This document shows positions 1,863-10,376 of a stretch of DNA of 10,786 nt, piece by piece. Origin of the DNA: an uncultured Burkholderiales bacterium (GTDB lineage: Bacteria; Pseudomonadota; Gammaproteobacteria; Burkholderiales; Burkholderiaceae_C); the NCBI GenBank assembly GCA_937897495.1, contig CALCBL010000052.1, forward strand, positions 1 to 10,786. The letters are read 5' to 3'. Every line of letters starts with the position of its first letter. The first letter of the stretch is position 1. The notes beneath the pieces are model-generated. The model was not told the DNA's origin and did no database searches. It was given only the letters and a program-made list of their open reading frames with translations. The position numbers were made by a program, and so were the translations under genes.

Positions 1863-2501
1863 TCAGGTCCCACCCACGTAGGGATTGCTAATGCGCTCAC
1901 GGCCAAATGTACTTTCGGGGCCATGCCCTGGAATGAACACCGTGTCATCGCCCATGGGCCACAAACGCTGCGTGATGCTGGCAATCAAGGTGTCGTGATC
2001 ACCCTGTGGAAAATCAGTTCGGCCAATGCTGCCCGCAAACAAAACATCGCCCACAAAGGCACGCTTTATTTCAGGCGAGTGAAACACCACATGACCTGGC
2101 GTATGGCCAGGGCAATGTCGCACGTTCAGTGTGTGTGACCCAAGCGTGACGGTATCGCCATCGGCCAGCCACCGCGTGGGTGTGAAAACCTCGGCATCAG
2201 GAAACTGAAACATGCGGCCTTGATCTGACAAACGATCAATCCAAAACTGATCGCCAGGGTGCGGTCCCACGATGGGCAAATTCAAATTGCGCGCCAAGAC
2301 GGCCGTACCGCCGGCGTGATCGATGTGCGCGTGGGTCAGCCAAATTTGCTCGAGTTTCAATCCCCTTTGCTGGACCTCCGACAAGATCAAGTCGAGGTCA
2401 CCACCTGGATCGATCACTGCTGCTTGTTGGGTTTGATCGTCCCAAATCAAAGAGCAGTTTTGTTGAAACGGCGTGACAGGGATGGTTTGGTACTGAAGCA
2501 T
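1863..2501 (-). CDS. MBL-fold metallo-hydrolase, YcbL/glyoxalase II-like
   Basis: A 212-residue protein without a signal peptide, so cytoplasmic. The binuclear metal site of the metallo-beta-lactamase fold is complete: THAHIDHAGG (56-65; H57, H59, D61, H62), PGHTPG (131-136; H133), GD at 151-152 (D152) and PGHGP (191-195; H193). The GRTDFP segment (160-165) is shared with the single-domain glyoxalase-II-like group that includes Salmonella YcbL. That group hydrolyses thioesters such as S-lactoylglutathione. The larger substrate-binding C-terminal domain of classical GloB is absent, so the natural substrate is not certain. ATG at 2499-2501 has no clear Shine-Dalgarno sequence upstream. It is divergent from the membrane fusion protein gene, sharing a 91-base intergenic region in which I see no convincing promoter pair. 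Confidence 0.88.
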   Translation of the reverse strand: MLQYQTIPVTPFQQNCSLIWDDQTQQAAVIDPGGDLDLILSEVQQRGLKLEQIWLTHAHIDHAGGTAVLARNLNLPIVGPHPGDQFWIDRLSDQGRMFQFPDAEVFTPTRWLADGDTVTLGSHTLNVRHCPGHTPGHVVFHSPEIKRAFVGDVLFAGSIGRTDFPQGDHDTLIASITQRLWPMGDDTVFIPGHGPESTFGRERISNPYVGGT

Positions 2502-2592
2502 GCTGGTATTTCAATGGGTTTCGCTTGCAAGGCAATGTAACAAAGTTTGATGCAGAAACACGTATTGTGAGGTCTTGTTCACTGACTCACAC

Positions 2593-3897
2593 ATGACCAC
2601 GCCACTTTTTCGCTCAGAAGTTATCCAATCCAAGCAGGCCTCTTGGATGGGTCCCATTCACCTTGCACACAATCCGCGCTTCACCATCGTGGCCAGCATC
2701 GCTTTGGTGCTTGCGGGTGCCTTGTTGGCTTTTGGTGCTTGGGGCAAAGTGGCGCGCAAAGTTCGTGTGCCTGGCGTCCTCATGCCGCAATGGGGCACGG
2801 TGGAATTAAGTCCCGCCGTTTCAGGTGTGCTGCTTGAGCAAAGGGTGAAAGAAGGCGACTGGGTTGAGCAAGGCCAAGTTTTGTTTGTGGTCAACACCGA
2901 CAAAACCTCGGCTGAGGGCAGCACAGCCAGCTTGCTGGCTTCTCATTTGGCGCAGCGGCGCAGCACCCTCTTGGCCGAACGCAGCTCGCGCATGGCTCAA
3001 AACCGCCAGCGCGAAGCGCATCTGACAGATCGCATTCGTTCCTTGTCACTTGAAACAGCGCAAGCTACCCAAGAACATGCATTGGCAAAGCGCAGGGTTG
3101 AGTTGGCGCAAAAAACTTCTGCACGGTTTGAGCAAATGGCTGCTGAAGGCTTTGTCTCTGACATTCAAGCGCAAGGCAAGCAAGAAGAACTCATTGACCT
3201 TCAATCGCGCCTAGAAAATACACTGCGCAATGGTGTTGCCTTGGCCCGCGAACACAAGGCCGCCCAAGCCGACTTGGCCCATCTTCAAAAACAGTTGGCC
3301 ATTGAACTGCTCCAACTCGACCGCAACCTGGCCAGCCTCGATCAAGAAACAGCCGAAGTCCAATCGCGCAAAACCAGCAGTGTGTTAGCACCCCAAGCGG
3401 GGCAGGTCAGCACGGTTCATCTCAGCCTAGGCGCCATGGCACAGGCAGGTCAAACCATTGCCAGCTTGGTGCCCCAAGCCAACGCACAGGCACCCCATCA
3501 CTCGGCACACACTTTGGTTGCCGCCCTTTTTGCGCCCACCCGTACCACCGGCTTCATTCAGCCTGGTCAAGAGGTGTGGCTTCGCTTGGCAGCCTACCCC
3601 TATCAAAAATTTGGACTGGCCAAAGGCCGCGTGCTCAAGGTCAGTGGCACACCCATTGCCCCTCAAGATTTACCGCACGGTCAGGGCACGGCCCTCATGG
3701 CCTCCACGCAAAGCAACGAGCCGCTCTACAGAATTCAAGTTGAGTTGGTATCCCAGCATGTCATGGCGTTTGGCGTGGCCCATCCCTTGCGCCCAGGCAT
3801 GACTCTCGAAGCCGACGTCATCCACGATGTGCGCGGCATTTGGGAATGGGTCTTCGAGCCCCTCTTGGCCATTCACGCACGCCAACAAACATCATGA
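2593..3897 (+). CDS. HlyD/CvaA-type membrane fusion protein of a peptide exporter
   Basis: A 434-residue protein from the ATG at 2593. A TTG at 2575 would add six residues, but relatives begin near the LFRSEV motif; a GAGG at 2569-2572 fits neither start well. The layout is a short cytoplasmic N-terminus (LFRSEVIQSKQASWMG), one membrane anchor (about 30-50), the first half of a lipoyl domain (about 60-103, with EGDWVEQGQVLFVV), a long Ala/Gln/Glu-rich coiled-coil hairpin (about 115-260), the second lipoyl half (APQAGQV, 266-272) and a beta-barrel part ending in LRPGMTLEADVI (399-410) and a WEWVFEPL tail. That tail is typical of CvaA-like adaptors paired with C39 ABC exporters. It should link the exporter encoded at 4741-6837 to a TolC-type channel, which is not in the window. 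It is the first gene of the cluster, and its stop overlaps the next start (ATGA). Confidence 0.93.
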   Translation: MTTPLFRSEVIQSKQASWMGPIHLAHNPRFTIVASIALVLAGALLAFGAWGKVARKVRVPGVLMPQWGTVELSPAVSGVLLEQRVKEGDWVEQGQVLFVVNTDKTSAEGSTASLLASHLAQRRSTLLAERSSRMAQNRQREAHLTDRIRSLSLETAQATQEHALAKRRVELAQKTSARFEQMAAEGFVSDIQAQGKQEELIDLQSRLENTLRNGVALAREHKAAQADLAHLQKQLAIELLQLDRNLASLDQETAEVQSRKTSSVLAPQAGQVSTVHLSLGAMAQAGQTIASLVPQANAQAPHHSAHTLVAALFAPTRTTGFIQPGQEVWLRLAAYPYQKFGLAKGRVLKVSGTPIAPQDLPHGQGTALMASTQSNEPLYRIQVELVSQHVMAFGVAHPLRPGMTLEADVIHDVRGIWEWVFEPLLAIHARQQTS

Positions 3898-4433
3898 ATT
3901 TCATTCAGAGCATCAGGGCTTCGCACCTCAACCGGCATGGCTTCATCGATGTTTTGGTGGGCATCACTGTGTTTCAAGCCATCAACATCATATTGATCGT
4001 GTTGTTTGGCAATTTAGACGTCGGGCCAGACGAAGACCCCTCTATCTCCTTATGGGAAATTGCTTTCTTGATGTTGTTGGTTGCACCTCTCCTAGAAAAT
4101 TTTTTATTGATTGCGGTGGCAGCCATCCATGAGAAATTGTTCAAACGACCTCTGTTGTTTGTGGTGGCACCTTTGTTGTTGACGGCGCTTCACTTCACAA
4201 CGCCACAAGAGCTGCCATTCCCCACGTTCATCCGAGTCATCGAGCTCTTTGGCTTCTTCTATATTTTTTTAAAACAATACGATTTGCACAAGTTGGAAAT
4301 AGGCAAATGCAAGGCATTGCTTTTAACCAGCGTTCTTCACTTTGCACTCAATGCAACCGTGATTTCCGTCTTGTGTTTATTTGATTTTTATATCGCCGCT
4401 GAAACGATTTTTTCAGCACAACCAGGAGATTGA
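3894..4433 (+). CDS. Small polytopic membrane protein, degenerate CPBP (Abi)-like; candidate immunity or processing protein
   Basis: A 179-residue protein whose ATG (3894-3896) overlaps the TGA of the fusion-protein gene, so the two are probably translationally coupled. At least four hydrophobic segments are visible (about 18-39, 53-77, 87-100 and 140-165), with further hydrophobic residues at 112-126. The arrangement recalls CPBP intramembrane proteases. APLLEN (64-69) sits where aPxxEE is expected but has Glu-Asn (E68, N69); LTALH (96-100) resembles the FxxxH motif with its His at H100; and HFALN (149-153) fits HxxxN exactly. In Gram-positive bacteriocin loci, CPBP proteins are known as immunity or maturation proteins. 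The cluster has no other immunity candidate and this gene lies directly before the precursor, so self-protection is a reasonable inference, with second-step proteolysis the alternative. The missing second Glu argues for reduced or altered catalysis. The gene is A+T-richer than its neighbours (19 G+C in 4261-4320, against 35 in 5461-5520). Confidence 0.75.
   Translation: MNFIQSIRASHLNRHGFIDVLVGITVFQAINIILIVLFGNLDVGPDEDPSISLWEIAFLMLLVAPLLENFLLIAVAAIHEKLFKRPLLFVVAPLLLTALHFTTPQELPFPTFIRVIELFGFFYIFLKQYDLHKLEIGKCKALLLTSVLHFALNATVISVLCLFDFYIAAETIFSAQPGD
4424..4428 (+). promoter_or_regulatory. Strong ribosome binding site of the precursor gene
   Basis: AGGAG with a 6-base spacer to the ATG at 4435, the best Shine-Dalgarno site in the cluster. 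It fixes the start at 4435 rather than at the upstream in-frame ATG at 4381, which lies inside the preceding gene. It fits a product needed in higher amounts than its exporter. Confidence 0.85.
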
Positions 4434-4434
4434 C

Positions 4435-4644
4435 ATGAGAAGTTTAAACATTGACGAATTGAACGAAGTCCAAGGGGGTGGCATATCTTTTAAGTGGGCT
4501 TACAAGCTGGGTGAAGCCATAGCAAACATGTACACGCTGTATGAGGCGTCCCAAAAAATTGAGCTCGAGCCCTCAAGCTATGGCGCTGTAGACGCAAGCG
4601 GCTACAACGCCATGGGCGACTATTCCGGCATGTGCACCCGATAA
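4435..4644 (+). CDS. Double-glycine leader peptide precursor (putative class II microcin/bacteriocin)
   Basis: A 69-residue protein. The N-terminus MRSLNIDELNEVQGG is a near-ideal colicin V-type leader: MR-L-x(4)-L-N-x-V-x-GG, 15 residues, with hydrophobic residues at the spacing that C39 peptidases read. Cleavage after G15 would release a 54-residue peptide; a third Gly at 16 makes a one-residue shift possible. The mature peptide has a hydrophobic/aromatic first half (SFKWAYKLGEAIANMYTLY) and a Gly/Ser/Tyr/Asp-rich C-terminal half ending GMCTR, with one Cys (C67). It lacks the Ser-rich C-terminal tail of siderophore-carrying class IIb microcins and the YGNGV motif of pediocin-like bacteriocins. 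One base separates it from the preceding stop, and a hairpin and the exporter gene follow. Export substrate status is well supported; antibacterial activity is inferred, and a signalling or other secreted peptide remains possible. Confidence 0.87.
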   Translation: MRSLNIDELNEVQGGGISFKWAYKLGEAIANMYTLYEASQKIELEPSSYGAVDASGYNAMGDYSGMCTR

Positions 4645-4679
4645 GCGCTAAATAGTCGCCATTGAAACCGGCAACATGA

Positions 4680-4710
4680 AAGCCTGCGCAATGAGAAATT
4701 GCGCAGGCTT
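4680..4710 (+). terminator. Perfect 12-bp hairpin between precursor and exporter: attenuating terminator or mRNA-protecting stem
   Basis: AAGCCTGCGCAA (4680-4691) and its exact reverse complement (4699-4710) flank the 7-base loop TGAGAAA. The sequence after the stem, GTTTGTCATT, is only moderately T-rich, so complete intrinsic termination is doubtful. Partial read-through would give more precursor than exporter mRNA, a common need in such clusters. Alternatively the stem stabilises the 3' end of a processed precursor mRNA. The stem also buries the TTG at 4699, which argues against that codon as the exporter start. Confidence 0.6.
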
Positions 4711-4740
4711 GTTTGTCATTACCTCGGAGATAAGTCCGCC

Positions 4741-6837
4741 TTGAACCCCGTCTTGCAACTTCAAACGTCCGAATGTGGCTTGGCTTGCCTGTGCATGATT
4801 GCCAACGCGCATGGTCAACATTGGCATCTCATGGATTTGCGGCACAAGTTTCCACAATCACTCAAGGGCGCCAACCTCAAGCAACTCATCGATCACAGCC
4901 TTGTTTTGGGTTTCAATGCCCGGCCTGTTCGCTTGGAATTGGAAGAGTTACACCAACTGCGCATGCCGTGCATCTTGCATTGGGACTTGAATCACTTTGT
5001 GGTGCTCCAAAAAATCAATGGCAACAAAATTACTTTGCTTGATCCTGCGCTGGGTATCAGGGTCGTGTCTCACGCAGAAGTTTCGCAACACTTCACAGGC
5101 ATCGCTTTGGAACTCACGCCCCAAGCTGACTTTACAACCAAGCCCGCACCCAAAGCCTTTCCGCTTTCAATGCTCACCGGCAAGCTTCAAGGCTTTGGTC
5201 AATCTGCCCTTCAAATATTGGCCTTGGCATTTGTCCTCGAGCTGTTTGCCATCTTCATGCCCATGTTCAACCAAGCCGTGGTAGACGATGTCTTAACCTC
5301 AGGTGACCACGAACTGCTCTCGGTCTTGGTTGCAGGCTTTGCCATCATTCTTCTCATTCAATCTGCGCTTTCCTTCGCACGCAGTTGGTGGGTCATGGTG
5401 CTAAGTCAAAGCGTTTCTATTCAATGGCTAGGCAATGTGTTTGCGCACCTGGTCAAACTGCCGGCAGAGTGGTTTTCTCAGCGGCATTTGGGCGACATCT
5501 CTTCGCGCTTTGGCGCTGTTCATGACATTCAAAGAACGCTCACACAAACCGCCATTGAGTCTCTGCTCGATGGCTTGATGGCCATTGCTGCGCTGGTCAT
5601 GATGTTCATTTACTCGCCCACACTGACTTGGGTGGTTTTATCGGCCTCCGCTTTGTATGCACTTGTGCGCTGGATCAGTTACTCGCCCTTTAGACATGCT
5701 GCTTCTGAGCGTTTGGTTTTAGCTGGCCAAGAACAGAGCCACTTCATTGAAACACTTCGCGCCATGACGCCGCTCAAATTGTTTGCACGAGAAAATGAAC
5801 GGCGTGCAAAATGGCAAAGCCTCATGGTGGAAGTCATGAACCGCGATTTTCAAACCGCCAAATTAAACATGGGCTTCAATGTCGCACGCACACTTATTTT
5901 TGGCCTTGAAAATTTGTGCGTCTTTTGGATGGGTGCCAAACTCATTCTGCCATCGCAAACACAAGGCCACAGCGCAAGCGTTTTCACGGTGGGCATGCTG
6001 CTGGCTTTCATCAGCTACAAGGTTCAATTTACAAGTCGCATCACCGCGCTCATCAATCAAGGCATTGAGCTGAAAATGCTCAATTTGCACCGCGACAGGC
6101 TGGCCGACATTGTGCTCACGCCGCCCGAGCAAGACACGCCCCAAGGCAACTTGCCTGCTCACGATTTGTCCCATTTGCCTGCCAGCCTCGAGCTGCGCAA
6201 AGTTTCATTTCGCTACAGCGAAGCAGAGCCTTGGCTGCTCTACAACATGGACCTTTGTATTCAAGCCGGTGAGCATGTGGCCATTACCGGCGCCAGCGGT
6301 TGCGGCAAAACCACCTTGCTCAAAATTTTATTAGGGCTGCTAACGCCAACACACGGTACGGTCTTGTACGGCGGCGTGCCTGTTGGCCAACTGGGCATGT
6401 CCAATGTTCGCCGAAAAATTGGCGTGGTCATGCAAGAAGATGCCCTGCTGACCGGCAGCATTGCAGACAACATCGCCTTCTTTGACTTGGCACCCCAAGT
6501 TCAAAGGATAGAAGCCTGCGCGCAATTGGCAGAAATTCACAATGACATTGCACGCATGCCCATGGGTTATCACACCCTCATTGGCGAGCTTGGAACGGGT
6601 CTCAGTGGCGGTCAAAAGCAGCGCCTGTTGTTGGCACGAGCACTCTACGTACAGCCTTCCGTTTTGGCTTTAGACGAAGCCACCAGCCATTTGGACATGC
6701 AAAACGAAAGCGCTGTTTCAAACACCTTGTCGCAACTCAAGCTCACGCGCATTGTCATTGCGCATCGCCCTGAAACCATTGCCCGCGCAGACAGGCACAT
6801 CAACTTCAGCTTGCCAGGGCTTGCCGCTTCCGCGTAA
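4741..6837 (+). CDS. C39-peptidase-containing ABC exporter (CvaB-like), processes and exports the double-glycine peptide
   Basis: A 698-residue protein if started at the TTG at 4741, giving MNPVLQLQTSECGLAC, the usual N-terminus of the family, with CGGAG (4725-4729) 11 bases upstream. An in-frame TTG at 4699 would add 14 residues but lies in the hairpin stem. Domain order is a C39 protease (1-125) with oxyanion Gln Q6, catalytic C12, H85 (in WDLNHF) and D101 (in DPALG), then a six-helix exporter membrane domain (about 160-440), then an ATPase (about 483-690) with Walker A GASGCGKTT (517-525), Q-loop Q565, signature LSGGQ (621-625), Walker B VLALDE (641-646) and switch His H675. All catalytic residues are intact. 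It should cleave the precursor after its Gly-Gly and drive export with the fusion protein at 2593-3897 and a TolC-type channel. Family length is normal (about 700). Confidence 0.95.
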   Translation: MNPVLQLQTSECGLACLCMIANAHGQHWHLMDLRHKFPQSLKGANLKQLIDHSLVLGFNARPVRLELEELHQLRMPCILHWDLNHFVVLQKINGNKITLLDPALGIRVVSHAEVSQHFTGIALELTPQADFTTKPAPKAFPLSMLTGKLQGFGQSALQILALAFVLELFAIFMPMFNQAVVDDVLTSGDHELLSVLVAGFAIILLIQSALSFARSWWVMVLSQSVSIQWLGNVFAHLVKLPAEWFSQRHLGDISSRFGAVHDIQRTLTQTAIESLLDGLMAIAALVMMFIYSPTLTWVVLSASALYALVRWISYSPFRHAASERLVLAGQEQSHFIETLRAMTPLKLFARENERRAKWQSLMVEVMNRDFQTAKLNMGFNVARTLIFGLENLCVFWMGAKLILPSQTQGHSASVFTVGMLLAFISYKVQFTSRITALINQGIELKMLNLHRDRLADIVLTPPEQDTPQGNLPAHDLSHLPASLELRKVSFRYSEAEPWLLYNMDLCIQAGEHVAITGASGCGKTTLLKILLGLLTPTHGTVLYGGVPVGQLGMSNVRRKIGVVMQEDALLTGSIADNIAFFDLAPQVQRIEACAQLAEIHNDIARMPMGYHTLIGELGTGLSGGQKQRLLLARALYVQPSVLALDEATSHLDMQNESAVSNTLSQLKLTRIVIAHRPETIARADRHINFSLPGLAASA

Positions 6838-6849
6838 GATGAACCCACT

Positions 6850-6868
6850 CAGGCACAACCCGTGCCTG
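6850..6868 (+). terminator. Short hairpin after the exporter gene, possible weak terminator
   Basis: CAGGCAC (6850-6856) pairs exactly with GTGCCTG (6862-6868) around the loop AACCC. It begins 13 bases after the exporter stop. No T-run follows, so termination would be weak or Rho-assisted, and read-through into the methyltransferase gene is possible. Confidence 0.35.
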
Positions 6869-6899
6869 CCTGATTGTCTATCTGACACACCCCTTTTCA

Positions 6900-7619
6900 A
6901 TGCCGGCACCTGTCCCAGATGCCTTGCCGCCTGACTGCCCCCATGGCTATCTAACCAAGCACGAGTCCATCGCCATTCAAGGCGTACCCAATTTGTTCAT
7001 TCGCTCTTTGCTAGACAAGCAACAGTTTTACGATCCTGAAGACGCTGCATTGGCACTGGGCATTTCTTCCGCTTTCTGGTCGCTGTTTGGTTTGCTCTGG
7101 CCCTCAGGTTCAAAATTGGCAGAGCGCATGGCGCTCAGGCCAGTCAACGCCAATGAACGCATTCTTGAAATTGGCTGTGGCTTGGCCCTGTCTAGCTTGG
7201 TGGGACATCGACGAGGCGCCAACATCACGGCGTCAGACTGTCACCCGCTGGCTGGTGAATTTCTGAAAGAAAATTTGCGCCTCAACCATTTAGGCCCCAT
7301 GAACTACCGACATGGGCACTGGGGTGAACACGCCACACAACACCAAGACATTGCGGTTAGCAGCAGGTTCGACTTGGTCATTGGCAGCGACATTCTTTAC
7401 GAGCGCGATGAACGTGGCGACTTGGCGCATTACATCAATGAACATGTTGAAGACCACTCAGAGGTTTGGGTGGTCGATCCCAATCGTGGCAATCGCTCAC
7501 ACTTTCACCGCAACATGGCCGCGCAAGGTTTCGCACTCAGCGAAGAGGCGCTCGACATTTCAGCCACAGAGAACGTGGCCGCCTACAAAGGCAGAATGCT
7601 CACATACTCCCGCGATTAA
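6900..7619 (+). CDS. Class I SAM-dependent methyltransferase, Nnt1/METTL21-like (methyltransferase 16 group)
   Basis: A 239-residue protein. The SAM-binding core is recognisable: ILEIGCGLALSSLV (88-101) is motif I, ASDCHP (111-116) supplies the acidic residue after strand 2, and GSDILYE (162-168) is the post-I/IV motif shared with the METTL21/Nnt1 protein-lysine or small-molecule methyltransferases. The segment before the core (SSAFWSLFGLLWPSG, 56-70), with its W-PSG, is also typical of that group. ATG at 6900 is the first in-frame start after a stop, but it has no Shine-Dalgarno sequence. It lies 62 bases after the exporter gene on the same strand, separated by a weak hairpin. It could be co-transcribed with the peptide cluster or be an unrelated housekeeping gene; the sequence does not decide. 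The substrate is unknown. Confidence 0.82.
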   Translation: MPAPVPDALPPDCPHGYLTKHESIAIQGVPNLFIRSLLDKQQFYDPEDAALALGISSAFWSLFGLLWPSGSKLAERMALRPVNANERILEIGCGLALSSLVGHRRGANITASDCHPLAGEFLKENLRLNHLGPMNYRHGHWGEHATQHQDIAVSSRFDLVIGSDILYERDERGDLAHYINEHVEDHSEVWVVDPNRGNRSHFHRNMAAQGFALSEEALDISATENVAAYKGRMLTYSRD

Positions 7620-9233: not shown

Positions 9234-10376
9234 ATGTACCTCTGGCAATCTTCCAAATGGCCTCACTTCAAGGTCGACCTGGCTGCGCTTCAACCGGCCA
9301 TCGCGGCCACACGCTTTTCACAGGGAAGGGCCATGGGGCTCGCGACGCACCTGCAATTGCCTGACCTCGTAGCGCTTCAACTTCAGGGCTGGTCAGATGA
9401 AGCTTTGGCAACAGCTCAAATTGAAGGCGAGATACTGCAACTCAACTCGGTCAGAGCGTCTGCCGCACGTCGCTTGGGTTTGGCAGACGGCAAAAAAAAC
9501 AAACGCGACGCGCGCGCCGAGGCCACACTCAATCTGCTAGAAGGCGCCTTGCAAAATAGTCATCGCGCGCTAAGTCACCAAACCTTGTTTGACTGGCAAG
9601 CCGCTTTGTTTCCAACTGGCCGAAGTGGCACGCAAAAGATTCTGACCGGCGCTTATCGGACACATTCGGAGCCCATGCAAATCGTCACACCGCGAATGGG
9701 CAAGCCCGACCTTGTGCATTATCAAGCGCCAGCTTCTGAAGATGTCAGGCGCCACATGGACCTCTTCATCCAGTGGTTTAACAGCAGTCTGGGCAAGCAA
9801 GATGGTTTGGTGCGTGCCGCATTGGCACACCTGTGGTTTGAAACCATTCATCCCTTTGAAGATGGCAATGGTCGCATTGGCCGCGCCTTGGTGGAGATGG
9901 CCTTGGCGCAAGACCTTCAAACAGAACAACGTCTGTGGAGCTTGTCACAACAAATTTGGCATGAAAGAAGCGCTTATTACGAACAACTTCAATCGGCAAC
10001 CAGCAGCGCCAACATGGACGTCACGCCTTGGGTTCAATGGTTCGTCGCTTGCATTCACAAGGCAGCTGACAGCAGCTGGGGACAGATGCAATCGGCCATG
10101 CGCAAAACACGTTTTTGGGCAGACCTGCGTGAACTTCATCTCAGCCTCACGCCATCACAAAGCAAAGCCATCAACAAACTCTACGATGCAGGCCCCGATG
10201 GATTCAGTGGCGGTCTGAGTACCGAGAAATACGTCAACCTGTGCGGCGTGTCACGCGCCACTGCTTATCGCGAATTGACCGCATTGTGCGAGGCGGGCTT
10301 GTTGGTGCAAACTGGCTCAGGACGAGGCACCCGTTACCAGCTTCATCACGCTGAAGGTATGGGATCAGCCCTGTAA
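9234..10376 (+). CDS. DUF4172-Fic-winged-helix protein (Fic AMP-transferase family, probably autoregulated)
   Basis: A 380-residue protein. The N-terminal part (about 1-80, beginning [15 protein letters not shown]) matches the DUF4172 type of Fic protein. TAQIEG (60-65; E64) fits the class II inhibitory motif (S/T)xxxE(G/N), whose Glu blocks ATP binding in the resting state. The Fic core carries [12 protein letters not shown] (206-217), an intact HxFx(D/E)GNGRxxR with catalytic H206. The C-terminal 50-60 residues (about 327-370, with [20 protein letters not shown] and a [10 protein letters not shown] wing) form a winged helix-turn-helix that should bind DNA. Family members AMPylate, or de-AMPylate, target-protein hydroxyls; the target here is unknown. 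The box array directly upstream suggests autoregulation. It lies between pyrE and gatB, with its 3' end overlapping gatB by 12 bases in convergent orientation. No separate antitoxin gene is visible; inhibition appears to be built in. Confidence 0.92.

Follow-up and report, generated by a model that had tools for sequence, protein, structure and literature searches.

We examined a stretch of 10,786 nucleotides from an uncultured Burkholderiales bacterium (contig CALCBL010000052.1 of assembly GCA_937897495.1, forward strand), which we refer to as the window and which is an entire contig of a 2.7-Mb genome in 682 contigs. From its same-genus relatives, we infer that this genome belongs to Limnohabitans. 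The window carries four consecutive genes on the plus strand: a membrane fusion protein (MFP) of the HlyD/CvaA type, 434 amino acids (aa) long and the periplasmic adaptor of the exporter (2593 to 3897, from ATG 2593); a CPBP-like membrane protein of 179 aa, proposed here as the cognate immunity protein (3894 to 4433, from ATG 3894); a precursor peptide of 69 aa (4435 to 4644, from ATG 4435); and a C39-peptidase ABC exporter of about 698 aa (4741 to 6837), which is a peptidase-containing ABC transporter (PCAT) of the CvaB type. The fusion and CPBP-like genes overlap by 4 bases, 1 base separates the CPBP-like gene from the precursor gene, and the 96 bases between precursor and exporter contain a terminator-like hairpin (4680 to 4710, plus strand). 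These open reading frame (ORF) coordinates agree with a preliminary description of the DNA, which had the four genes in a row on one strand with an overlap or a 1-base gap up to the precursor; its reading as a microcin-type cluster of a likely freshwater Burkholderiales was also supported, the relatives pointing to Limnohabitans. A double-glycine-type leader on a precursor encoded beside a C39-peptidase ABC exporter and an MFP is a feature of class II microcin loci, and all of these elements were found in the window.

The exporter matched the profiles ABC_membrane (3e-38), Peptidase_C39 (5e-34), and ABC_tran (9e-32). Its C39 and ATPase residues had been described as intact, and we found all of the motifs present, namely, what we take to be the C39 Cys and His regions, Walker A, LSGGQ, Walker B, and the switch His. 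The start codon is uncertain: the longest ORF begins at TTG 4699, homology favors TTG 4741, and a related locus (L023) has CTG at the aligned codon. The exporter is the sole C39 peptidase match in its genome. The fusion protein matched HlyD_3 (7.2e-11) and Biotin_lipoyl (2.1e-9), and its scores against TIGR01843 and TIGR03794 fell under the cut-offs of these models. TolC-family genes lie elsewhere in the genome (OEP, PF02321, on contig C663; E value, 7.5e-28).

The precursor has a leader of 15 residues (4435 to 4479; MRSLNIDELNEVQGG), and the 54 residues that follow GG form a predicted mature peptide with a net charge of -2. We recovered 29 relatives and then 152 from two protein searches, with the C-terminal motif counted over 120 of these and leader and cysteine counts made over 114. 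The sequence N-x-[ML]-G-D was found near the C terminus in 117 of 120 precursors. Leaders ended in GG in 106 precursors, in GS in 6, and in GR in 1, with 1 unmatched. A cysteine pair able to form a disulfide, which is possible but not required in class IIa (PMC10233263), was seen in none of the 114 precursors, which carried at most one cysteine (none in 45, one in 69). The Gly/Ser-rich C-terminal region for siderophore attachment that marks class IIb was not found either; the window tail ends in ..GYNAMGDYSGMCTR. In Pfam and NCBIfam, no named family matched above its cut-off, and only the leader gave subthreshold matches (PF10439 and TIGR01847; E value of 0.13 for each).

The mature peptide can be divided into a variable core that is a predicted helix (residues 16 to 43; 4480 to 4563) and a tail (residues 44 to 69; 4564 to 4641) that carries the motif N-x-M-G-D-[YFH] in alignments of relatives. 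The AlphaFold model of the precursor, which is of low confidence (mean predicted local distance difference test score, 64.9), has a helix at residues 15 to 41 and a tail with little structure. Among near relatives, the tail is the best conserved part of the precursor. Over 18 loci, the mean distance was 0.29 for the leader, 0.59 for the core, and 0.45 for the tail, so that the motif is kept more than the tail as a whole. One further locus (L038, 5228 to 6202) encodes two 61-aa precursors, each ending close to an N-x-MGD motif; they flank a CPBP-like gene that is 42% identical, and this is possibly a two-peptide version of the locus.

An alignment of the CPBP-like protein with 57 of 120 listed relatives, picked for spread and completeness, had five invariant residues (E68, N69, H100, H149, and N153) in all 58 rows. 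The classical CPBP pattern is Glu / His / HxxxN, with a first motif that is usually EExxxR. The first motif here reads E-N, with no Arg and no second Glu. The window protein did not match PF02517 above the curated cut-off, and 5 of the 58 aligned rows matched this family (best E value, 0.0088). The protein is predicted to be a helical membrane protein; a Foldseek search of the model against PDB returned no match at an E value of ≤0.001, and a PDB sequence search with the alignment returned three matches that looked like chance. The label "CPBP-like," already used in the preliminary description, thus keeps the backing of the invariant residues and the predicted fold, which are not conclusive, and lacks that of a Pfam assignment. 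We also observed that the C terminus of this protein (4398 to 4430; AETIFSAQPG-D/E) is oddly conserved for so fast-changing a protein. The QPGD/E part is coded where the ribosome-binding site of the precursor would lie, which would leave AETIFSA unaccounted for.

Searching genome contigs with the alignment of the CPBP-like protein, we identified 17 loci (3 from Limnohabitans metagenome-assembled genomes [MAGs], 2 from the Limnohabitans isolates MMS-10A-178 and Rim11, and 12 from Comamonadaceae or Burkholderiales MAGs). The fusion, CPBP-like, precursor, and exporter genes occurred together in 17 of 17 loci, so the arrangement noted in the window is not due to chance. The CPBP-like protein was present in 19 of 90 genomes of the genus, the precursor in the same 19, and a family-wide draw of 399 genomes contained 2 with the CPBP-like protein, both from this genus. 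Among plasmid-borne relatives, the best exporter of the matches listed reached 49%, and a CPBP relative (P0094) had no plasmid match.

The cluster occupies one chromosomal address (2502 to 6899) between two divergent genes, a metallo-beta-lactamase-fold (MBL) hydrolase gene (1866 to 2501, minus strand) and a methyltransferase gene (6900 to 7619, plus strand), and the site is the same in the loci whose contigs reach it. Each flank was found in 16 of 17 loci; the L032 contig begins inside the fusion gene, and the L024 contig stops in the exporter. We defined a lineage of 23 genomes, 22 of them by an MBL identity of at least 92%, plus G026. Outside this lineage, 45 genomes of the genus had MBL and methyltransferase matches paired on one contig, with a gap of <400 bases in 29 of them (down to 63 in G055) and of 480 to 29,408 bases in the remaining 16. 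Within the lineage, 22 of 23 genomes retain the whole cluster (the cassette is found in 19) or parts cut by contig ends (G087, G064, and G026). The last, G027, has a deletion remnant (L070, 3963 to 4363), in which about 28 codons of the fusion gene are joined, out of frame, to the final 110 exporter codons; the sequence from about codon 28 of the MFP gene to codon 589 of the C39 exporter gene is deleted. In L023, the exporter gene (from 4688) has an in-frame stop after 626 codons, just past LSGGQ, which may be true decay or a MAG error, and stops were flagged in the matched stretch of several further relatives, not all of them placed. The preliminary description had named precursor degeneration in close relatives, along with the lack of a secreted product, as evidence against its reading; some decay in relatives does exist.

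Within this fixed setting, the CPBP-precursor pair is a hypervariable cassette that, from sequence comparison, has passed between lineages, while the exporter genes are conserved. Across the window and 16 loci, the fusion protein and exporter had median pairwise protein identities of 0.79 and 0.88, against 0.61 and 0.50 for the CPBP-like protein and precursor. Identity steps down at the cassette borders; in this comparison, the first MFP block of L032 (0.41 and 0.44) looks like a misalignment of its partial fusion gene. Synonymous differences rise inside the cassette as well, which indicates more than fast protein change. Between the window and L031, they were 0.29 in the fusion gene, 0.60 in the CPBP-like gene, 0.73 in the precursor gene, 0.39 in the exporter gene, and 0.35 to 0.50 in flanking genes. 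The corresponding values for L032 were 0.30 (from a partial fusion gene), 0.60, 0.56, and 0.33, with 0.25 to 0.34 in downstream genes. The close pairs window/L022 and window/L023 had no synonymous jump in the cassette.

For the trees and for the Mantel tests below, L074 was added to make 18 loci. L038, for which a one-to-one alignment is ruled out by its gene order and second precursor, was excluded from all distance, tree, and Mantel tests. The tree of MFP and C39 exporter genes had two main clades of 12 and 6 loci, and the cassette tree mixed both. Of the clades in the MFP and C39 tree, the CPBP data rejected {window, L022, L031} (P = 1.2e-4), {L023, L032} (P = 2.2e-4), {L034, L074} (P = 3.7e-3), and the 6-locus clade (P = 3e-96); these CPBP-only tests were run after the joint CPBP and precursor tree was known, so their P values are not fully prior. 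The close pair L034/L074 accordingly carries different cassette alleles, both belonging to type II. Conversely, the MFP and C39 data rejected the seven-locus cassette type II (P = 3.4e-4). A further candidate exporter-gene clade, named from identities (window, L022 to L025, and L032), was rejected by the MFP and C39 tree (P = 2.7e-4) and by the cassette.

The variation of the two cassette genes is partly coupled. With the exporter genes controlled for, the distance of precursor residues 16 to 43 followed CPBP distance over the 18 loci (partial Mantel r = 0.44, P of about 0.002), while the leader (r = 0.003) and tail (r = 0.19, P = 0.13) did not. The border between core and tail, first placed by eye, was then moved: r was 0.42 to 0.49 for segments that start at the GG site and end at columns 30 to 48 (columns 16 to 36, r = 0.49) and 0.32 (P = 0.017) for the whole mature peptide. 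Columns 30 to 44 alone gave 0.15 (P = 0.14), so the signal lies in the first half of the core. The whole precursor had no preference, with r values of 0.31 with CPBP given the exporter genes and 0.34 with C39 given CPBP. Exceptions to the coupling include L024/L037 and L026. The coupling suggested by these alignments is partial, and 18 related loci make a small sample.

A stem could be folded between precursor and exporter in all 18 loci, with at least one two-sided change in each of six of the nine consensus pairs. Across 244,760 bases from the 18 sources, the stem CCTGCG...CGCAGG occurs only between precursor and exporter, once in each of 15 sources; the other 3 have a different or altered stem at the same position. 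The hairpin looks like a partial terminator. Promoter and terminator scans of the region gave site numbers not above those of shuffled sequences.

Relatives of the exporter also occur with other cargo. In G071 (L081, 467 to 853), a 128-aa double-glycine protein is encoded beside an exporter 71% identical to that of the window, and its CDNHDFNY stretch is, we presume, phospholipase A2-like, which suggests enzyme toxins as cargo of this machinery at a second site. In G012 (L080, 6117 to 6302 and 6345 to 9296, reversed orientation), the gene for a Gly-rich double-glycine peptide of 61 aa is flanked by those for a fusion protein and a 71 to 72% identical exporter, in the company of genes for proteins of 166, 345, and 476 aa. 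Large proteins like these are also found in G009 (L083), together with an ORF that we take to be transposase-like; no precursor was identified there. Across the window and the related loci, the named genes flanking the cluster are an M48 protease gene, the MBL hydrolase and methyltransferase genes, xth, and pyrE. In the window, a gene downstream of pyrE and outside the cluster (9234 to 10376) encodes a Fic-domain protein that has DUF4172 at its N terminus and a DNA-binding-like match (PF22168) at its C terminus.

The make-up of the cluster, which the preliminary description did not recognize, is only partly without precedent. The peptide family, the host, and the allelic locus appear new, the precursor matching no named family above cut-off, whereas the four-gene plan is known already because microcin S has a CAAX-family immunity protein. 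The microcin S cluster of Escherichia coli G3/10 (mcsS, mcsI, mcsA, and mcsB) has a double-glycine precursor, an HlyD-family adaptor, a peptidase ABC exporter, and mcsI, which is described as a member of the CAAX amino-terminal protease family and protects a sensitive strain (PMC3316575). That precursor is 120 aa long, Gly-rich, with cysteines, and plasmid-borne (PMC3316575), in contrast to the chromosomal 69-aa precursor with one Cys described here, and the gene order in our locus, adaptor-CPBP-precursor-exporter, is a further difference. No predicted transmembrane helices are reported for McsI (PMC3316575), unlike the helical membrane protein modeled here, a comparison made by description only. 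Microcins V and L (class IIa, CvaC/CvaA/CvaB/Cvi type) share the export machinery and the modular idea with our locus, but the Limnohabitans peptide had no above-cut-off match to a named bacteriocin family, and its N-x-MGD tail motif differs. The immunity proteins of these microcins are of the Cvi type, which differs from the CPBP-like type. Class II microcins have been described as modular, with the C terminus governing uptake; MccV and MccL share the use of Cir and are strongly alike only over their C-terminal 32 aa (PMC10233263). CPBP/Abi-family immunity is described for lactic acid bacteria (sakacin 23K SkkI and plantaricin PlnI and PlnL; PMC8538875). Those loci differ in their Gram-positive hosts and machinery; here, each CPBP-like gene of the 18 aligned loci has a single precursor, and that of L038 is flanked by two. 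Only 10 class II microcins had been counted as verified in 2022, most of them from Escherichia coli (PMC9746304). Among papers listed for Limnohabitans with bacteriocin or microcin, judged from the listing, none had such a cluster as its subject, the one microcin paper dealing with ascidian symbioses. Nor did the wider listings show a characterized homologous cluster, which the preliminary description had named as a refutation of its reading.

From these sequence comparisons, we consider it probable that the peptide is a class II microcin-like bacteriocin and the CPBP-like protein its cognate immunity protein. The immunity role is suggested by the co-occurrence of the two genes, their joint exchange, and the covariation with the peptide core, and the 179-aa protein encoded next to the precursor is of a size that would suit this role. 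The same covariation would also be expected if the CPBP-like protein, instead of giving immunity, were a protease that matures the precursor by trimming or other processing, the covariation then reflecting substrate specificity; the staphylococcal CPBP protein MroQ, which has been reported to act in peptide signaling, is a model for this. E68, H100, H149, and N153 are invariant in all 58 rows, as for a working enzyme, and covariation peaks just past the GG site (columns 16 to 36, as above). Yet bacteriocin immunity proteins of the CPBP superfamily reportedly need these motifs as well (work of Kjos et al. in 2010), the first motif lacks the Arg and the second Glu that EExxxR has in its classical form, a dedicated C39 peptidase is already there, and the cluster shows no other immunity candidate. 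We regard the protease role as unlikely.

If the peptide were a signal (a pheromone or a kin signal) and not a toxin, the CPBP-like protein would be its receptor or would pair with it in specificity, and swapped alleles would mark signaling groups, as in agr-type systems. This would fit the retention of the tail motif in 117 of 120 precursors, the anionic product, and the codiversifying membrane partner. No sensor kinase or response regulator is among the named flanking genes, though, the CPBP protein by itself has no output domain, and the phospholipase-like GG protein beside the related exporter in L081 suggests toxin cargo, so that signaling seems to us quite unlikely. It is very improbable that the divergence is drift under weak constraint on the CPBP-like gene and precursor in a decaying locus. 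The G027 deletion, the L023 exporter stop, and the stops flagged in other relatives are what decay would produce, but the invariant residues, leader, tail motif, and hairpin are all retained, 22 of 23 lineage genomes keep the cluster or its contig-cut parts, and the synonymous jump inside the cassette in some pairs is not expected of relaxed selection.

If the peptide is a bacteriocin with CPBP-like immunity, the C39 domain would cut the precursor after GG, and the exporter, fusion protein, and a TolC-type channel would push the 54-residue peptide out of the cell. The hairpin after the precursor gene probably sets a high ratio of precursor to exporter mRNA. Conservation and covariation suggest a modular peptide, in which the variable helix (residues 16 to 43) would be the toxic part and the part recognized by the CPBP-like protein in the inner membrane, and the N-x-MGD tail would have a role shared by the alleles, most likely in uptake by relatives or in recognition of a receptor on them. 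The toxin and immunity genes would form a cassette that lineages exchange by recombination, with the surrounding exporter genes left in place, and as a result neighboring lineages would differ in peptide and immunity at one fixed locus. More tentatively, and with a likelihood that we place clearly below even, the locus may act in these free-living freshwater bacteria as a multiallelic self/nonself locus, as in allorecognition. Nearly every member of one Limnohabitans lineage would then carry one of many cassette alleles at the same address, framed by fixed exporter genes, the shared C-terminal tag would admit the peptide to all relatives, the variable helix would decide survival through recognition by the CPBP-like protein, and alleles would spread by recombination.

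The locus is carried by the Limnohabitans isolates Rim11 and MMS-10A-178, whose peptides, if cut after GG, would be 50 and 55 residues long, and its precursor family has no named model in Pfam or NCBIfam. The 18 pairs aligned from one lineage form a natural allelic series, the putative toxin and immunity genes differing far more than the exporter genes do. With this series, it becomes directly testable how CPBP proteins would protect against bacteriocins and which region of a microcin would determine uptake and which toxicity.

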